A stretch of DNA of 40,903 nt from a candidate division WOR-3 bacterium. Lineage in GTDB: Bacteria > SDB-A. Of the stretch, positions 8,754-40,903 are shown piece by piece. Every line of letters begins with the position of its first letter. The stretch's first letter is position 1. Location: assembly GCA_016926475.1 (NCBI GenBank), contig JAFGON010000093.1, positions 1-40,903 on the forward strand, read 5' to 3'. Position numbers and translations under genes: made by a program. The notes under the pieces were generated by a model, which saw nothing but the letters and a program-made list of their open reading frames with translations, was not told the DNA's origin and did not search any database.

Positions 8754-10648
8754 AAAGAGTAGAGGAAAGCATTTTGGACAAAATAAACAACCCTGACGAT
8801 GTAAAAAAACTCGACAACGACCAGCTGGTTCAATTAGCTGAGGAGTTGAGAAAACTCATAATAGAAGTAGTCGAAAAAAATGGAGGTCACCTCGCTTCGA
8901 ACTTGGGAGCCGTGGAACTGACTTTGGCTCTTATGAGCGTCTATGATTTGAACAACGACAAGTTGGTATGGGATGTGGGACACCAGTGTTACGCCTATAA
9001 AATTTTGACCCAGAGAAAGCAACTCTTTCACACTATTAGAAAGTTCGGCGGAATCAGCGGCTTCCCGAAAATCAGCGAGAGCCCTTTCGATTGTTACGGA
9101 ACAGGCCACGCCTCCACGTCCATTTCCGCGGCTGTGGGGATGGCTGTGGCGAGAGACGTTCTTTCTCAAAAACACGAAGTAATCGCTGTTATTGGAGACG
9201 GATCTCTCACTGGAGGGCTGGCGTGGGAAGGTTTGAATCATGCGAGCAGTTTCAAGGGCAACATAACCATCATAATCAATGACAACGGAATGTCTATAAG
9301 CGAAAACGTGGGTATGGTTTCGGAGTATTTGAATAAACTCGTCACAGCTCCGGTTTACAACAGAATGAGAGACGATGTCTGGGAACTTTTGGGGCTCCTT
9401 CCTCCTTTTTTAAGCAAAAAGGCACGGGACTCCGCCAGAAGAGTTGAAGAGGGCTTTAAAAACCTTTTGGTTCCTACGATACTTTTTGAAGAACTCGGTT
9501 TTAGGTATATAGGACCGGTCAACGGGCATGACATAAAATCATTGCGGGATGTCTTCAAAGGCGTCAAAAGATTGAAAGGACCGAAAGTTGTTCATGTTTT
9601 GACTCAAAAAGGAAGAGGTTATGAAAAAGCGGAACAAGACCCGGAGGTATTTCATGGAGTTGGCCCCCAGAAAACCGCGCAGGCAAAAGAAGAAACTTTT
9701 TGGAAAGACTATACATGGACCGACAGAGTTTCAGACCTCATTGTCGAACACGCTGAAATCGACACAAAAATCGTCGCGATTACAGCCGCTATGCCTCTTG
9801 GAACAGGACTCGACAAATTCAACGCAAAATTTCCAGACAGGTTTTTTGATGTCGGCATAGCTGAATCTCACGCGGCTGTTTTTGCCGCCGGTCTGGCAGC
9901 GAGCGGATTAAAACCAGCTCTGGTTCTATATTCGACTTTTTTGCAGAGAGCTTTCGATCCTGTTGTCCACGACATCGCCCTGCAAAAATTGCCGGTCTCG
10001 TTTTTCATAGACAGGGGCGGTCTGGTAGGTGAAGACGGACCGACTCATCATGGATTATACGATATAAATTACCTCTTGACAGTACCTGAAATCATCATGA
10101 TGTCTCCTGCCGATGAAAACGATTTAAAGCAGATGGTAGATATTTCTCTTAACTGCAAAAAGCCCTCTTTTTTGAGATATCCAAGGGAGAAGATGAGAGA
10201 TAACCTCAAAGGCTTCACTCCGGGAAAGGTAAAAATCGGTGAATCCTCGGTTCTAAAGGGTGATTTTCCAGTTGCCATAGTAGGAGTAGGAGTATGCGCG
10301 CACACGGCTGTCGAAGTGAGAGAGATGGTGTATGAAAAGTTTTCAGTAAAACCCTGGGTAATCAACGCGCGCTTTCTAAAACCTTTCCCTGAAAATATTT
10401 TGGGATTTTTAGAGGACAAAAAACTTGTCGTCACCATAGAAGAAGCCTCGAAAATAAACGGATTCGGTGCTTGTCTATCATCTTTTCTGGCTGAAAGGGG
10501 TTACGGGGGCAAATTTATGGCTATTGGGGTTGAAGACGAATTCCAGCCTCACGGTTCAAGAAAAACGCTTATAAAAGAGGCAGGTCTTGACGCATTGTCA
10601 ATATTCCATAAATTGTCAGGTGTAATATCAGTTATAAAGAACGGATGA
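8750..10648 (+). CDS. dxs: 1-deoxy-D-xylulose-5-phosphate synthase Dxs
   Basis: First enzyme of the MEP isoprenoid pathway; a thiamin-diphosphate enzyme that condenses pyruvate with glyceraldehyde 3-phosphate. The conserved HLASNLG histidine is at about residue 47, the ThDP motif runs from GDGSLTGG (149-156) to NDN (177-179), and the transketolase central domain (GIAESHA) and C-terminal domain follow. The start is placed at the ATG overlapping the preceding stop (ATGA), which gives 632 residues; an upstream in-frame start at 8726 would add an unconserved tail inside the neighbour. Together with the prenyl synthase it supplies precursors for quinones, undecaprenyl carriers and MiaA. Confidence 0.95.
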   Translation: MKRVEESILDKINNPDDVKKLDNDQLVQLAEELRKLIIEVVEKNGGHLASNLGAVELTLALMSVYDLNNDKLVWDVGHQCYAYKILTQRKQLFHTIRKFGGISGFPKISESPFDCYGTGHASTSISAAVGMAVARDVLSQKHEVIAVIGDGSLTGGLAWEGLNHASSFKGNITIIINDNGMSISENVGMVSEYLNKLVTAPVYNRMRDDVWELLGLLPPFLSKKARDSARRVEEGFKNLLVPTILFEELGFRYIGPVNGHDIKSLRDVFKGVKRLKGPKVVHVLTQKGRGYEKAEQDPEVFHGVGPQKTAQAKEETFWKDYTWTDRVSDLIVEHAEIDTKIVAITAAMPLGTGLDKFNAKFPDRFFDVGIAESHAAVFAAGLAASGLKPALVLYSTFLQRAFDPVVHDIALQKLPVSFFIDRGGLVGEDGPTHHGLYDINYLLTVPEIIMMSPADENDLKQMVDISLNCKKPSFLRYPREKMRDNLKGFTPGKVKIGESSVLKGDFPVAIVGVGVCAHTAVEVREMVYEKFSVKPWVINARFLKPFPENILGFLEDKKLVVTIEEASKINGFGACLSSFLAERGYGGKFMAIGVEDEFQPHGSRKTLIKEAGLDALSIFHKLSGVISVIKNG

Positions 10649-12717
10649 AGTTCTTAAAAACACCGGAAAAGGTACATTATTATTTAGCGCTTTACGCGCT
10701 CGTTTTTTTTTCTGTATTTTTCTCTTCAAACGGTTTTTTTTACGACTTTGGAAAGCGGAATTTCAACAGAGTTCTGATTCTTCTCTTGCTGATTCTGTGC
10801 CTGTTCTTTTTGATACTTCTTTTCCTGAAAACCCGGAAAAACTTCTACAGACCTGTTTCCTACCATGGTGTCGTCATACTGATTTCGGTGTTTATTCTTC
10901 TAGTTCAACTTTCGAGCGGTTCTCTATGGGGATTTTACTTTCCGATAATGATTTTGCTGTCTTTCAGGTGCGAGAAGAAAAAAATTCTTTTGGCTTTCTT
11001 GCTGGTTTCTTTTGTTGAAATCTCTTCATCAATATTTTCAGACCCGGAAAATATCTTCGGTCCAGATCACAATCCGATTTCCATGAGGGTGATACAGTTG
11101 ATTTCTTTGCTGGTGACAGTTGAACTTTTTCAAAGAATTTTCGTTTTTCGAAAGCCGTTGCCGAAAGAGAAGGATTATATGAGCACTTTCAAACCGCCCC
11201 TTGAAAGGATCGACCCTTCCAGGAAAATAATCGCCCGTAACGTGTCTCATATTCTCGGGTTGATATTCAACTATCCAAATGTAAGAACCGTCGCCCTGCT
11301 CTTTGTTGAAAATACAATAGAAGGTACTGCCTTTAAAATTTTCGATTTCCGGTCTTCGGCTTCTGAATTCATCGACAGCTCCAAGACCATTGCTTACGCT
11401 GGGAGCATTCTCGCCATCGCTGCGAGAGAGCCAAATCCATTCCTTTCGAGAAATTTCACCAGACCCGCTTTCAACCTCGGTTACTATACGGACGATGTTT
11501 CGGTTAAATCTTTTTGCGCTTCACCTGTGAGGGTAAGTGAAGAAACGGTAGGGGTTTTGTGTGTCGACAGCGATGTAGAAGGAGCTTTTACAGAAGACAC
11601 CGCATCCGACCTTCAAAGATACTCATCCCTGATTTCCGAAATTCTTCGGATTTCAACCCATTTGGAGAAAAAAGAAATAACTTCAACTTCACTGGAAATT
11701 GTAAACGATTTGGCGGACAAATTTGTCAGGTCGATATACTTCAAAGACGTGGTTGAAATATTCACAGAGAAAGTCAGAGAAACTTTCAATTTTGACGATT
11801 TCTTGATTATCCTTATCGACAAGTATGGTCTCATAAGCTACGCAAGATCCAGAAATAACTTGATTTTCTGCGACAATCTGGAAGCCGGGATGGCGCTGAG
11901 TCCCAAATCTATAGCAAAACTTGTCGTCAAAAACAACAGGAGCCTGAACCTTCCTGATTTTCAGAAAAATGTGTCCGTGGCGAGATACATACTGCACCCT
12001 GAAGATGGAAGCGTCAATGTAATGTCTTTTTTGGCTGTCCCGATACCTTCAAGAGATGAACCCTGTGGGGCGGTTTTTTTGATGAGCAACTATCTAAACA
12101 ATTACGATAAAAAAGACCATGAACTTCTCGAAGTCTTCACGCGCCTCTTCGGCGCGGCTCTTTCACGAGCGAATTTGTATGAAGAAAAGGAGAGGTTATC
12201 CTTGAAAGACGGTTTGACAGGATTGTTCAACCATAGATATTTTCAAGAACTTTTGAGCGATGAAATAGCGAGATCCGCAAGATCGGGTTCTGTTTTGAGC
12301 CTGTTGATTATTGATATCGATTTTTTCAAAAAAATAAACGACACCCACGGACATAGGACGGGCGACTCTGTTCTAGCGGGTATTTCATCATACCTTCAAA
12401 ATTCAGTGAGAAAATTCGATTCGGTATGCCGGTATGGAGGGGAAGAGATGGCGGTCATACTTCCGGATTGCCATTACAAGGAAGCTGTGATGATCGCTGA
12501 GAAGTTGAGACAGGGAATTGAGAGCCTCGAATGGCAATCTCCAGGCGGTGAATCCCTTAGAATTACCGTGTCTATAGGAGTGAGTTGTTATCCGCTAAGG
12601 GCTCAGGACAAAGAAGAACTCATAGAAGACGCGGATAAGTCTTTGTATTGGGCCAAGGACGGAGGTAGAAATTCAACTGCGTATGCCAGAAAAATTTACA
12701 ACATAAAAATCAATTGA
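10645..12717 (+). CDS. Membrane-anchored GAF-GAF-GGDEF diguanylate cyclase
   Basis: The first 175 or so residues hold about six hydrophobic segments. Two GAF-like domains follow (about 190-335 and 350-510), then a GGDEF domain (about 515-690) that makes cyclic di-GMP from two GTP. The active site reads RYGGEEM at 596-602, with Met where Phe is usual; both acidic residues are intact. The inhibitory I-site R589-K-F-D592 sits five residues before it, so product feedback is likely. DIDFFKKINDTHGH holds the metal Asp and substrate Asn. The start overlaps the dxs stop as ATGA. There is no EAL or HD-GYP partner here. It is well supported as a cyclase; the signal it senses is unknown. Confidence 0.88.
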   Translation: MKFLKTPEKVHYYLALYALVFFSVFFSSNGFFYDFGKRNFNRVLILLLLILCLFFLILLFLKTRKNFYRPVSYHGVVILISVFILLVQLSSGSLWGFYFPIMILLSFRCEKKKILLAFLLVSFVEISSSIFSDPENIFGPDHNPISMRVIQLISLLVTVELFQRIFVFRKPLPKEKDYMSTFKPPLERIDPSRKIIARNVSHILGLIFNYPNVRTVALLFVENTIEGTAFKIFDFRSSASEFIDSSKTIAYAGSILAIAAREPNPFLSRNFTRPAFNLGYYTDDVSVKSFCASPVRVSEETVGVLCVDSDVEGAFTEDTASDLQRYSSLISEILRISTHLEKKEITSTSLEIVNDLADKFVRSIYFKDVVEIFTEKVRETFNFDDFLIILIDKYGLISYARSRNNLIFCDNLEAGMALSPKSIAKLVVKNNRSLNLPDFQKNVSVARYILHPEDGSVNVMSFLAVPIPSRDEPCGAVFLMSNYLNNYDKKDHELLEVFTRLFGAALSRANLYEEKERLSLKDGLTGLFNHRYFQELLSDEIARSARSGSVLSLLIIDIDFFKKINDTHGHRTGDSVLAGISSYLQNSVRKFDSVCRYGGEEMAVILPDCHYKEAVMIAEKLRQGIESLEWQSPGGESLRITVSIGVSCYPLRAQDKEELIEDADKSLYWAKDGGRNSTAYARKIYNIKIN

Positions 12718-35878: not shown

Positions 35879-37117
35879 ATGAAAAACGAGAAAAATATTG
35901 TCATCCACGCCGAGACTCTATTCGATGGAGAAGAAAAAATTAAAGGCGTGGCAATTGTAATCGAAGGGGGTTTGATTACAGACCTGTCGAAAAGTTCTGC
36001 GAAGGCTGATTTTTCTGGAGTCGTCACTCCGTCTTTAATAGATGCTCATTCTCATATAGGAATGGCGAGGGAAGGAGAACCGGCTGACGAAGAAGAGACA
36101 AACGACATACTGTCCCAGTTTCTTCCTCTCAACGACCCATTGAACAGCATCTATTTCGATGACAGAGCTTTCACAGACGCCGTGGATTTCGGGGTTCTCT
36201 ACAGTTGCGTGATACCAGGGAGCGGCAATTTGCTCGGTGGAAAGGCGGCTGTGATCAAAAATTATTCGTCAAACAGAAAAAACGCCCTGTTGAAGGATTA
36301 CGGCTTCAAGATGGCTTTAGGCTACAACCCCCGTTCCACAGGTCAATGGAAAGGCGAACGCCCCAACACGAGGATGGGGATATACGCATTGCTGGAAAGT
36401 TATTTTGATGAAGTTCTGAGAAAACAAGAAAAATCAAGACTCAACGTGGAAAAGGAAAAATCCGCTTTGGTCAGGTCATCGTCGGAGAAGAAAATTTCCG
36501 AAAAAGAAATGAGCGAAGAATTGTCGAGAATTGAAAAACTGTATGAATGCGAGTTCAGCTCTTCGGAAAAGGAGATCATTAAAATATTAAACGGAGAAAA
36601 AACAGTCAAGGTGCATGTTCACAAAGAAGACGATGCTCTTTATCTTGTCCATCTCGTTCAAAAATACAAGATCAGGGCTACAGCGGACCACCTGGGCGAC
36701 GTTTTTCATAAAGAGATATTCGATGAACTCGCTGAAAACGGCATACCCATCGTCTACGGTCCTTTGAATTCCTTTTCTTACAAAGTCGAACTAAAGCACT
36801 CATACTATCAGAACGTCAAACTTCTCATGCAGTCAAAAGCTTTTTATGGTCTTATGACCGACCACCCGGTCATTATGACCAATTCTCTGCGTGACAGCCT
36901 TAAATATTTTCTCATCTACGGTATGCCCGAGGAAAAAGCGATAGGGATAATAACAAAAAATAACGCGAAGATATTGGGTATAGACAATGATTTTGGAACA
37001 GTAAAACCTGGAAAAGTAGCCAGCTTGGTTGTCTGGGATGATAATCCTCTGAGTTTGTCTGCTTTCCCTGAGGCGGTATTTGCCGAAGGAAAAATCATCA
37101 GGCGCAGACACAAATAA
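35879..37117 (+). CDS. Metal-dependent amidohydrolase (imidazolonepropionase-like)
   Basis: Amidohydrolase-superfamily enzyme. The N-terminal beta-sandwich strand is followed by the metal motif DAHSH (H57 and H59), then VHVHKEDD, TADHLGD and the late Asp in LMTDHPV, and the C-terminal GTVKPGKVASLVVWDDNPL strand. Residues about 178-235 are a charged, helical insertion (many Lys/Glu/Ser) not typical of the fold. The substrate is unknown. GGAGG precedes ATG 35879. It overlaps the next gene by one base (TAATG). Confidence 0.85.
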   Translation: MKNEKNIVIHAETLFDGEEKIKGVAIVIEGGLITDLSKSSAKADFSGVVTPSLIDAHSHIGMAREGEPADEEETNDILSQFLPLNDPLNSIYFDDRAFTDAVDFGVLYSCVIPGSGNLLGGKAAVIKNYSSNRKNALLKDYGFKMALGYNPRSTGQWKGERPNTRMGIYALLESYFDEVLRKQEKSRLNVEKEKSALVRSSSEKKISEKEMSEELSRIEKLYECEFSSSEKEIIKILNGEKTVKVHVHKEDDALYLVHLVQKYKIRATADHLGDVFHKEIFDELAENGIPIVYGPLNSFSYKVELKHSYYQNVKLLMQSKAFYGLMTDHPVIMTNSLRDSLKYFLIYGMPEEKAIGIITKNNAKILGIDNDFGTVKPGKVASLVVWDDNPLSLSAFPEAVFAEGKIIRRRHK

Positions 37118-37866
37118 TGGCGCTGACCGTACTTTTTTTGCTTTTTAAAGTTGTCAACGCCGAGGTCGATGTTCCGCGCGGCGTCAGAGATAGGATGCGA
37201 ACCATTGTGAACTCCGTCATGACTCACTGCGAGAGGGGAGAGCTTTCTTGGGACGGTTACATTTTTTATATCGATCCTTCGGAATACATACCTGCTGATT
37301 CAACGTATCCAAGACTTGGAACGTCGAGAGGAGACGACGAAGGTATTTCGGTTCAAAGGTTGGTCTGGGGAATTGATTACGAGATAAAAGGCGAAGAAGT
37401 CCACTACGCGGTGGAGAGTTTTTTCCCTGTTCGGACAGGAAGGCTGGGATTTGGCTTCGAAAAACGGTCGGGGAGAACTCCTACTGGATTTTATGTTCTC
37501 GGCGATTATTATTTAGCTGAACAAAAATACACAAACCTCAGTATTAATTACCCCGGTGAAATAACAACCGGCAGAATATTGCTTTTGAATGTGATGAAAA
37601 ATGGACACTCGATATACACAGAGACAAGAGGCCAAAACAATCCGCTCCTCAGAGGAATATTGATTCACGGTTTCGGACTGTCCGAACAGCAAGAACGAAA
37701 TGAAGACGAAGGATCCAAAGGATGCGTCCACGTGACCGCGGAGGGAATAATCAGCATAATAAATATTTTGAAAACAAACAGAGGCAGAACCTACATCTTC
37801 ATATCGGGGGCTGACACGAATTTTTCGGATTTACCCCAATATGAAAAGAGTATTTTGGAGCAGTAA
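37117..37866 (+). CDS. L,D-transpeptidase (YkuD family) with altered catalytic motif
   Basis: Secreted peptidoglycan cross-linking or amidase-type enzyme. Signal peptide at about 1-15 (VVNA cut). The YkuD core has TPTGFYVLGDYY, then HGFG with H184 and SKGCVHV with the nucleophile C203. The usual motif is S/T-HGC-x-R; here Lys replaces the first His and His replaces Arg, while His and Cys remain. This may alter activity or acceptor. The neighbours (CapA, amidohydrolase, DedA) are also envelope-related. Confidence 0.8.
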   Translation: MALTVLFLLFKVVNAEVDVPRGVRDRMRTIVNSVMTHCERGELSWDGYIFYIDPSEYIPADSTYPRLGTSRGDDEGISVQRLVWGIDYEIKGEEVHYAVESFFPVRTGRLGFGFEKRSGRTPTGFYVLGDYYLAEQKYTNLSINYPGEITTGRILLLNVMKNGHSIYTETRGQNNPLLRGILIHGFGLSEQQERNEDEGSKGCVHVTAEGIISIINILKTNRGRTYIFISGADTNFSDLPQYEKSILEQ

Positions 37867-37867
37867 A

Positions 37868-39022
37868 ATGATTTATTGGATGTTATTTTTGACTAAAGTC
37901 TATCAAGTTTTTTTTGATCCGGTGCTAATAACTCAAAGTTTTATTTTCGACAATTTTCAGCTCAGGGAATATTTGGAAGAACCGCGGAAAGAAAACACTT
38001 CAATAATCATAACCTTATCAGGCGATGTCAACATGTCTGTGTCAAAAACCTGGGTTGATTCCTCGGGAGCAGTTTCAAACCGTGGAGTTTTGCCTTTTTC
38101 GATTTTCACCGATTCGATAAAGGAATACATCGAAGGAGATATCAACTTTTGCAACCTTGAGACCACTGTCCTGAACGACAATTCTCTTGCCAATGCTGAT
38201 AAAAGCTACTGTTTCCGAATGCATACTAACGCGTTGAAGCATTTAGCTCAAACCGGATTCAATCTTTTCGCCCTCGCGAACAATCATATGGAAGATTACG
38301 GAACAAGGGGTGTGCTTCAAACTCTTGAAAATATAAAAATCCTGAGCTCTGAATGCACATTGTTTTTTGCAGGAGCTGGAGCAGACTACGATGAAGCCGT
38401 CATGCCTTTCATATTTGAAATTAAAGGCCACAGATTCGCGTTTTCGAGCCTTGGTATTTCTGGACTTCCCGCGACTTCAAGCTCGCCGGGTGTGGCTTTA
38501 ACTTCTTTCAGCGAAAAGGTTTTGGGAGATCTTTCTTCAGTTGAGGCGGACTACAGAATATTGGCTCTTCACGCCGGAAACGAGAGAAACGAATATGTGA
38601 CCTACCTCCAGAATTCAATAATCAAGAAAGCTCTGGAGGAATACGAAATCGACCTTGTAGTAGGCACGCATCCGCACATTGTTCAAGGCGCGGAATACTA
38701 TGAAGGTAGAATGGCTTTTTACAGCCTTGGCAATTTTTTGATGCTCGGGGCACGCAACATGTCGACGGTTGAAAACTCACTCTACAAAAAGGATTTCGGG
38801 CTTTTCGTCAAAATATTTCTGTCGGATTCTCTTGAAATCGATTCGGTCACAGTTCACCCTGTCTTCAACATGCATTTTCAACCTTATTTTCTTTCCGACT
38901 CTGTAGATGTCGCAATGAGAGTAGAGTGGCTGAATAAAATTTCCAACCGACCCTACATGACACCCATTGAAGAGAATATCATTTTCCAATGCGATGGAGT
39001 CAGGGGAATCTTTGTTCCTTGA
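37868..39022 (+). CDS. CapA-family poly-gamma-glutamate-type metallophosphoesterase
   Basis: CapA/PgsA-like calcineurin-fold protein of 384 residues with an N-terminal hydrophobic segment (about 1-16). Metal-site motifs are complete: LSGDVNMS, INFCNLETTV, LANNHMEDYG, LHAGNE and GTHPHIVQG, followed by FYSLGNFL. CapA proteins are tied to poly-gamma-glutamate capsule or related polymer synthesis. Without capB and capC nearby the polymer is uncertain. ATG at 37868 is preferred because GGAG lies seven bases upstream; the ATG at 37841 is inside the transpeptidase gene. Confidence 0.88.
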   Translation: MIYWMLFLTKVYQVFFDPVLITQSFIFDNFQLREYLEEPRKENTSIIITLSGDVNMSVSKTWVDSSGAVSNRGVLPFSIFTDSIKEYIEGDINFCNLETTVLNDNSLANADKSYCFRMHTNALKHLAQTGFNLFALANNHMEDYGTRGVLQTLENIKILSSECTLFFAGAGADYDEAVMPFIFEIKGHRFAFSSLGISGLPATSSSPGVALTSFSEKVLGDLSSVEADYRILALHAGNERNEYVTYLQNSIIKKALEEYEIDLVVGTHPHIVQGAEYYEGRMAFYSLGNFLMLGARNMSTVENSLYKKDFGLFVKIFLSDSLEIDSVTVHPVFNMHFQPYFLSDSVDVAMRVEWLNKISNRPYMTPIEENIIFQCDGVRGIFVP

Positions 39023-39582
39023 AAAGAAGGATTAAGAAATATTTAGAGGGTGTTTCCACAAAGCAGAAAATATTCCAGATATGCTCGATAATACTCGTAA
39101 GTTTATTGAGCGTGTTGATTATTCTCCTCCGTTCAAAACTGGAGGGTTTGAAAGATTACGGTTACGCTGGTCTTTTTCTGGTGTCGACGATTTCGTCAGC
39201 GAGTATAATACTTCCAGTTCCCGGTCTTTTTCTCGTTTTTTCATTTGGAGCTGTTTTAAATCCTCTGATTGTGGGAATCGTGTCGGCTTTTGGTTCAGCT
39301 CTCGGTGAAGTGACAGGTTATATCCTTGGATACGGCGGAAGAATCGCAGTGGAAGACAGGGATAAATACGAAAAGGTCTCTGAAATGATGAGGAGGTGGG
39401 GCAGTTGGACGATTTTGTTTCTTGCGCTTATTCCCAACCCGCTTTTCGACATAGCCGGAATTATTTCCGGAATGCTCAAATATCCTCTTTGGAAGTTTCT
39501 TCTCTACACACTCATAGGAAGAATAATAAAGCACATCGTTTTCGCATACGCAGGATTCTACAGCTTGTATTATTTCTTTTGA
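39019..39582 (+). CDS. DedA-family (SNARE-associated) membrane protein
   Basis: Multi-pass membrane protein with about five to six hydrophobic segments. The DedA core SASIILPVPGLFLVFSFGA, the GEVTGYILGYGGR stretch, the MRRWGSWTILFLALIPNPLFDIAG segment and the closing IGRIIKH are present. DedA proteins are linked to undecaprenyl-phosphate or phospholipid flipping and to membrane homeostasis. The TTG start overlaps the CapA stop (TTGA) and gives 187 residues; the in-frame ATG at 38989 is inside CapA. It ends the envelope gene group. Confidence 0.85.
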   Translation: MKRRIKKYLEGVSTKQKIFQICSIILVSLLSVLIILLRSKLEGLKDYGYAGLFLVSTISSASIILPVPGLFLVFSFGAVLNPLIVGIVSAFGSALGEVTGYILGYGGRIAVEDRDKYEKVSEMMRRWGSWTILFLALIPNPLFDIAGIISGMLKYPLWKFLLYTLIGRIIKHIVFAYAGFYSLYYFF

Positions 39583-39660
39583 ATCAAACCCCATCTTTCC
39601 GACAGTGGGCTGATGTGATATTCTAATAAATAAGGAGTGACGATTTACAAAGGGAAAGGT

Positions 39661-40903
39661 TTGAGAAGACTCGTTCCGGAAATAATTTGCCGAAATTATG
39701 TTGAGAAAAAATTCGAAGGCGAATTCGAATCATTTGTCCTCACTTGCGATATTTCAGGCTTCACTTCGATAACAGAATCTCTTTCTGAAAAATCATTTGA
39801 AGGCTCTGAAATAATAACGGATACCATAAACAGAATATACAAACCTGTTATTGATTTCATAAAAGCTTCCGGCGGATTTATATCTTCTTTCGCCGGGGAT
39901 TCTTTCGCCTCCCTTTTTCCAGTGAGTAATATTGGGTCAAATAAGAGCATAACTGAAGTTTCCGAAAACATTTCAAGGCTTCTTTTCAAAATGGAAGAGG
40001 TCAAAACAAAATTTGGAGATTTCAAATTTAAAGTAAAAATAGGGCTTTCCAAAGGAATCGTTTCGTGGCGTATCGTAGAGAGTGATTTTGGAACGGCGTT
40101 TTACTTTTATAGCCAAGCGTTTAAGAAAAGTTATGACATGTTGAAATATTCTTCGCGAGGTTCTGTTGCAATAGACGATTCTGTCTATACAGAAACAAAC
40201 TTTGATAAAGATTTGACGGATTCAGGATTCATGACGCTTAATCCAGAAAATAAAAAAGCGGATTTAAAAGAAGTAGAAAGTCTTTTTTTTGATGAAGAAA
40301 CTTTGACAAAAAAATTTTTCCCTGAAAGCGTTTTGAAAATGAGCGTTTCAGGGGAATTCAGGGGAATCATTGCCAGTTTTGTGTTCCTTGATGAAAAATC
40401 TGTGGTAGACCGTAACATAATAAAAGCCATGGAAATCACTTCCAAGTATTCGGGCTATTTCAATAAAATCGACTTCGGAGACAAAGGATGGGTCATCCTC
40501 GTAGTTTTCGGAGCTCCGTATGGAGTTGAAAACATATATAAAAAAGCCTGCAATTTTGCTTTTGAAACAGTTCTGTCTTTGAGGGGAAACGTAAAAATTG
40601 GAATGACATCCGGTACAGCTTACGCCGGTTTTTTGGGAAGCGAAAAAAGAGCCGAATACACCGTTTTGGGCACTACTGTCAACCTCGCCTCAAGAATAGC
40701 ACAAAACTCTGAATGGGGAGAAGTAACCATTGACAAGAGCATGCTCAAAGACATGTCCAGGTATTGCTCGGTCAAAAAAGAGAAGAAACAAACTTTCAGA
40801 GGTTTTGAAAAAAATGAAATTATTGTCTGCTCCATAACTCAAGGTGACTTGAGCCAGCAGGCCGAAGTTTTCGAAGGGCCGTTCATCGCCAGAGAAGAAG
40901 AGA
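39661..40903 (+). CDS. Tandem class III nucleotide cyclase, soluble-adenylyl-cyclase-like, 3' truncated
   Basis: The frame is open to the end of the window (414 codons from TTG 39661). Two cyclase domains are seen: C1 (about 22-180) with metal Asp D30 (TCDISGFTS) and D80 (SSFAGDSF), and C2 (about 230-390) with K275 (GDKGW), T334, N341 and R345 (EYTVLG..VNLASR). C1 lacks the Asn/Arg pair and C2 lacks the metal Asp pair, so the two would form one composite site. The last residues GPFIAREEE look like the start of an AAA/STAND ATPase domain. Start is uncertain: TTG 39661 follows AAAGGGAAAGG, while GTG 39637 lies further up in frame. Confidence 0.85.
   Translation, partial: MRRLVPEIICRNYVEKKFEGEFESFVLTCDISGFTSITESLSEKSFEGSEIITDTINRIYKPVIDFIKASGGFISSFAGDSFASLFPVSNIGSNKSITEVSENISRLLFKMEEVKTKFGDFKFKVKIGLSKGIVSWRIVESDFGTAFYFYSQAFKKSYDMLKYSSRGSVAIDDSVYTETNFDKDLTDSGFMTLNPENKKADLKEVESLFFDEETLTKKFFPESVLKMSVSGEFRGIIASFVFLDEKSVVDRNIIKAMEITSKYSGYFNKIDFGDKGWVILVVFGAPYGVENIYKKACNFAFETVLSLRGNVKIGMTSGTAYAGFLGSEKRAEYTVLGTTVNLASRIAQNSEWGEVTIDKSMLKDMSRYCSVKKEKKQTFRGFEKNEIIVCSITQGDLSQQAEVFEGPFIAREEE

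Follow-up and report, generated by a model that had tools for sequence, protein, structure and literature searches.

The stretch of DNA analysed here (the window, 40,903 nucleotides) corresponds to contig C93 of genome G000, which is 2.15 Mb in size and assembled into 106 contigs. The window breaks off inside a gene whose product resembles human soluble adenylyl cyclase (sAC, or ADCY10). This raises the question of whether the bacterium possesses a genuine sAC-type cyclase, and of whether such a protein could be controlled by bicarbonate in the manner of the human enzyme.

A tandem class III cyclase pair of the sAC type

The frame (window 39661-40902, + strand) runs off the contig end, and the 414 residues that it encodes include a C1-C2 pair. 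The TTG at 39661 is aligned with the ATG of the ortholog L080; an in-frame GTG is present at 39637.

39661..40903, + strand: 5' part of the sAC-type cyclase gene, comprising the first 414 codons from a TTG start to the point where the contig stops
39661..40212, + strand: C1 cyclase domain, approximately residues 1-184 (family C1 HMM, 213 bits; AlphaFold)
40294..40845, + strand: C2 cyclase domain, approximately residues 212-395 (family C2 HMM, 228 bits; Pfam PF00211)

Pfam detects only part of C2 in the window protein, whereas the family HMMs detect both cyclase domains. A single-sequence phmmer search of the PDB aligned both domains with human sAC (E 4.5e-18). With a profile of 24 family sequences, human sAC was retrieved at E 7e-51 over its residues 37-203 and 265-471, and the next protein was CyaB (E 2e-23). 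The AlphaFold model of the window protein has a pLDDT of 84 and a pTM of 0.86 for the tandem. When this model was submitted to Foldseek, the top 24 PDB matches were all sAC structures, followed by AC9; the best sAC match has an E value of 7e-28 and a TM score of 0.81 over the tandem, with ~20% identity to human sAC in the structural alignment. Over its two domains, the window protein resembles sAC in sequence far more closely than it does single-domain cyclases. Thus, the proposal of the earlier note that two class III domains are fused as in ADCY10 is confirmed: the window codes for a tandem cyclase pair of the sAC type, and the resemblance is far beyond chance.

Cyanobacterial CyaC also harbours a class III domain with a Thr at the base-recognition position, but it has a single cyclase domain per chain, forms a homodimer with two sites and carries different N-terminal sensors. 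In contrast, the window protein carries two cyclase domains on the same chain, at its N-terminus, and thus does not belong to the CyaC type. It shares with CyaC (PDB 1wc0-1wc6) the class III domain and the Thr, and CyaC is a weaker profile match (E 7.5e-21) than sAC.

The catalytic residues were located by profile and family alignments, their roles in sAC being taken from PMC12867704 and PMC12250328.

39748..39750, + strand: D30, metal Asp (sAC D47)
39898..39900, + strand: D80, metal Asp (sAC D99)
40483..40485, + strand: K275, base-recognition Lys in the DKG loop (sAC K334)
40660..40662, + strand: T334, base-recognition Thr (sAC T405)
40681..40683, + strand: N341 (sAC N412)
40693..40695, + strand: R345 (sAC R416)

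These six positions had been picked out from the sequence beforehand, with the exact numbers, and all of them align with catalytic residues of sAC, including the Thr proposed for purine recognition. In addition, K126 aligns with sAC K144. The metal Asp residues are in C1 and the Lys, Thr, Asn and Arg residues in C2, which defines a single composite site. Base recognition is of class IIIb, by K275 and T334, with Thr where transmembrane cyclases have Asp. The complete catalytic set is kept in the window protein and in both its orthologs, L080 and L081 (family alignment). The features shared with human sAC thus comprise the tandem C1-C2 arrangement, the composite site, the DKG loop and residues identical to D47, D99, K334, T405, N412, R416 and K144.

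The complete gene and its neighbourhood

In human sAC, the cyclase pair is followed by ATPase and TPR regions. A similar C-terminus had been predicted for the window protein from its last residues.

40873..40903, + strand: EGPFIAREEE, lead-in to the AAA_16 ATPase (ortholog P0002; C11 continuation)
G000:C11:5829-8972, - strand: remainder of the gene (~six codons missing between contigs C93 and C11)
38989..39582, + strand: VTT-domain membrane protein, an upstream neighbour conserved at the two orthologous loci as well
37841..39022, + strand: PGA_cap-domain protein, conserved neighbour
37117..37866, + strand: YkuD L,D-transpeptidase-type protein, conserved neighbour

A continuation through overlapping DNA was looked for and not found. 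A protein search with the ortholog retrieved the C11 segment, whose product begins a few codons from the window end, shares 54% identity with the C-terminal region of the ortholog and carries the Walker A motif GSTGVGKT. The orthologs come from two congeneric genomes (L080, 59% identical, 1492-residue frame; L081, 47%, 1472-residue frame), and in both the cyclase pair is followed by AAA_16 and TPR_12 domains. The upstream gene order YkuD-PGA_cap-VTT is common to the window, L080 and L081, i.e. to three species. Downstream, L080, L081 and C11 share genes that we named from their sequences as dCMP-deaminase-like, TPR protein and sugar-epimerase-like. The join between C93 and C11 is well supported despite the missing codons, because of the match to the ortholog and of this shared neighbourhood. 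The full-length window protein thus has the sAC plan (C1-C2, ATPase, TPR), in agreement with the C-terminus that had been foreseen.

In a phylogenetic tree, the window protein groups with L080 and L081 and, with a support of 0.947, with L037. The latter, contained in L082, is from the record 'Desulfuromonas sp. SDB' (LKUE01; G003), which the genome search assigned to the family of the window genome and which provides the nearest sequence outside the genus. The name of this record is probably a misassignment in NCBI; we doubt it because no other related genome was closer than domain level. The other bacterial tandem cyclases collected (L036-L064, from metagenome-assembled genomes named Cloacimonadota, Fermentibacteria, Delongbacteria, WOR-3, Chloroflexota, Gemmatimonadetes and others) have the same architecture, mostly the catalytic set and no Lys/Arg bicarbonate pair. 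They are ~30-38% identical to the window protein but belong to other orthologous groups.

The bicarbonate pocket and possible modes of control

39886..39888, + strand: S76, at the position of the bicarbonate-binding Lys95 of sAC (phmmer, profile and family alignment)
40132..40134, + strand: Y158, at the position of the bicarbonate-switch Arg176 of sAC (profile and family alignment)

The Lys95/Arg176 pair of human sAC is absent from the window protein, which has Ser and Tyr instead, as had been claimed: S76 corresponds to K95 and Y158 to R176, and no alignment placed Lys and Arg at the site. The R176 assignment is less certain than that of K95, as position 158 sits in a variable helix. The absence of the pair thus held, but not its being particular to this protein. 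None of the 84 bacterial tandem homologs carries the pair, and we dropped the idea that the window protein is exceptional. In the family alignment, Arg is found at the R176 position in 0 of the 84 sequences and Lys at the K95 position in four, all four with degenerate catalytic sites. We also abandoned Tyr158 as a functional substitute for Arg176: the orthologs carry Asn and Gly there (S/N and S/G at the two positions), so that Tyr158 is not conserved. Among animals, the pair is conserved in mammals and occurs in only few other species (PMC12867704). Its absence is therefore the expected, common state, general in the bacterial family and frequent in non-mammalian animal sACs.

In human sAC, neutralising K95 or R176 strongly reduces both bicarbonate sensitivity and activity (PMC12867704). 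Since the pair is missing, bicarbonate should not activate the window protein by the mammalian route, and this residue test places it outside the bicarbonate-regulated sAC subgroup. The prediction that mammalian-type control would be lacking is sound but general. As the same substitutions also reduce the activity of human sAC, the details of the site in the bacterial protein must be different.

Other residues might nevertheless mediate a response to bicarbonate (or CO2). T334 is present in the window protein and in most homologs, and the class IIIb Thr was once proposed, in work cited in a passage of PMC3383692, as a marker predicting bicarbonate regulation of sAC-like cyclases; a different bicarbonate mode could thus exist. 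However, the window protein lacks the two bicarbonate-coordinating residues of human sAC, and the sea urchin and salmon sACs, in which one residue is replaced and the catalytic rest is kept, are bicarbonate-insensitive (PMC12867704). We consider this explanation quite improbable.

These two animal enzymes (ApsAC and SssAC) suggest another form of control. Each has the tandem pair, an intact catalytic set and a bicarbonate pair from which one residue is missing, and they were demonstrated to respond to alkaline pH (PMC12867704). An active catalytic pair regulated mainly by pH would fit this loss, which accompanies alkaline-pH activation in both. In contrast with ApsAC and SssAC, the window protein has kept neither residue, and the pH effect in sea urchin is partly tied to a retained Lys at position 95, where the window protein has Ser. 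No pH data were found for any bacterial tandem member. Regulation mainly by pH thus seems unlikely to us.

The explanation that we favour, and regard as probable, is that of a cytosolic sAC-type (class IIIb) cyclase with one active site, not activated by bicarbonate through the mammalian route and likely regulated by its ATPase-TPR half. It builds on the observed sequence, predicted fold, residues, architecture, orthology and neighbourhood. The protein of ~1475 residues would comprise the C1-C2 pair, an AAA_16/STAND-like ATPase and a long TPR array. C1 and C2 would pack head to tail to form a single active site, in which D30 and D80 would coordinate two metal ions, adenine would be read by K275 and T334, making ATP the presumed substrate, and N341 and R345, together with K126, would handle the phosphates and the transition state, with release of cAMP. 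The second, pseudo-symmetric pocket, which is the bicarbonate site in human sAC, would be empty without counterparts of Lys95 and Arg176. Likewise, the Arg176-Asp99 lock described for human sAC (PMC12250328) would have no counterpart, and D80 would not be held back that way. Regulation would most likely come from the ATPase-TPR half sensing a ligand or a partner protein, possibly with a contribution of pH. In STAND-type switches, a repeat domain senses and the ATPase gates the output, and it is by analogy with these that we propose the ATPase-TPR half as the replacement input.

Paralogs and cyclic nucleotide-binding proteins

Beyond its substituted bicarbonate residues, its ~20% identity and its bacterial origin, the window protein also differs from human sAC in being one of ~15 paralogs. 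A search of its genome yielded 26 matching stretches. They include 14 clear C1-C2 genes, a pair of ends on contigs C39 and C77 that are probably one split tandem gene, and a truncated copy on C79, i.e. 15-16 tandem sAC-type genes. Six contigs (C93, C11, C105, C77, C39 and C79) end inside or at sAC-type paralogs, indicating that some of these genes were split in the assembly. On C79 (L142:6844-8197), the paralog is truncated after C1 and followed by a CRISPR-like array of 11 repeats of ~28 nt (GAAACACCCCCACGCACGTGGGGAAGAC), occurring every 61 bases up to the contig end.

Sets of 14 and 15 tandem genes occur in two sister genomes, and the alignment contains 16 from G003; multiple copies are also present in other deep lineages. 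Single-domain cyclases included, the window genome has ~25 class III loci in 2.15 Mb, or ~1.3% of ~1,800 genes, a gene number estimated from the gene density in the window. For comparison, the genomes tabulated by a census of 2005 reach at most 0.5% (PMC1183210). Our literature searches found no paper on a bacterial sAC-type expansion in this lineage.

We then counted the tandem copies with an intact catalytic set (D, D, K, T/S, N, R). They amount to 8/14 in G000, 9/14 and 8/15 in the sister genomes G001 and G002, 9/16 in G003 and 20/25 in the named relatives, a few of the copies counted as non-intact having incomplete sequences. In the window genome, a catalytic residue has thus been lost from six of the 14 paralogs, and certain degenerate groups are retained in more than one species (L014 (C33:13504)/L090/L108 and L018/L107). 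This loss in nearly half of the set shows non-catalytic roles to be common in the family. The cyclase pair of the window protein might accordingly be a pseudo-enzyme that binds nucleotide and serves only to control the ATPase-TPR half. However, the window protein and both orthologs retain the entire catalytic set, which makes this very unlikely for the protein considered here, and an active cyclase remains our preferred reading.

The cAMP formed by such an enzyme could be read by the five cNMP-binding (PF00027) proteins of the genome. This number is the same in all four genomes. A canonical-looking phosphate-binding cassette is present in four of the five G000 proteins, and one of these four has a C-terminal helix-turn-helix-like region, as read from its sequence. 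Another of the four (L158:1894-3417, on G000:C64) fuses what reads as an MscS-like channel to a cNMP-binding domain with a canonical cassette, and it is possibly a cyclic-nucleotide-gated channel. A stand-alone cNMP-binding protein of 165-166 residues, nearly identical in three genomes (L155:2858-3352, L161:8357-8854, L162:8205-8699), is encoded within a few kilobases of one orthologous cyclase paralog and is far better conserved than its neighbours. This nearby protein and the PF00027 set would be consistent with a working cyclic-nucleotide system.

In G001 (C24) and G002 (C23), a protein with a cNMP-binding-like domain fused to GGDEF is encoded divergently from an sAC-type paralog (L156:1817-3040, L157:1855-2967). 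We discounted it as evidence for a link to cAMP, its cassette being devoid of the canonical Arg. The window itself codes for a GAF-GGDEF protein of the diguanylate cyclase family (10645-12717), indicating that c-di-GMP-type signalling proteins are present as well.

Bacterial sAC-type cyclases were previously known, and the window protein adds a member to them, in an unusually expanded set. The number of paralogs and the mix of intact and degenerate copies are the more interesting part of the finding. The complete sAC architecture, with its composite cyclase, ATPase and TPR regions, is widespread in bacteria without the bicarbonate pair, so that bicarbonate control looks like a derived trait; the bacterial absence of the pair agrees with the recent work on fish and sea urchin sACs. 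The high density of class III cyclases makes this lineage suited to asking what the ATPase-TPR half of sAC does. More tentatively, as a possibility that we would not yet call probable, the sAC-type proteins of this little-known lineage might form a large sensor array of about fifteen paralogs in a 2 Mb genome. About half of them would be catalytic and the others conserved pseudo-cyclases; every member would have an ATPase-TPR input of its own, and the array would feed a handful of cNMP receptors. Bicarbonate sensing might then have been added late, in animals, to a more ancient cyclase controlled by its ATPase and TPR regions.
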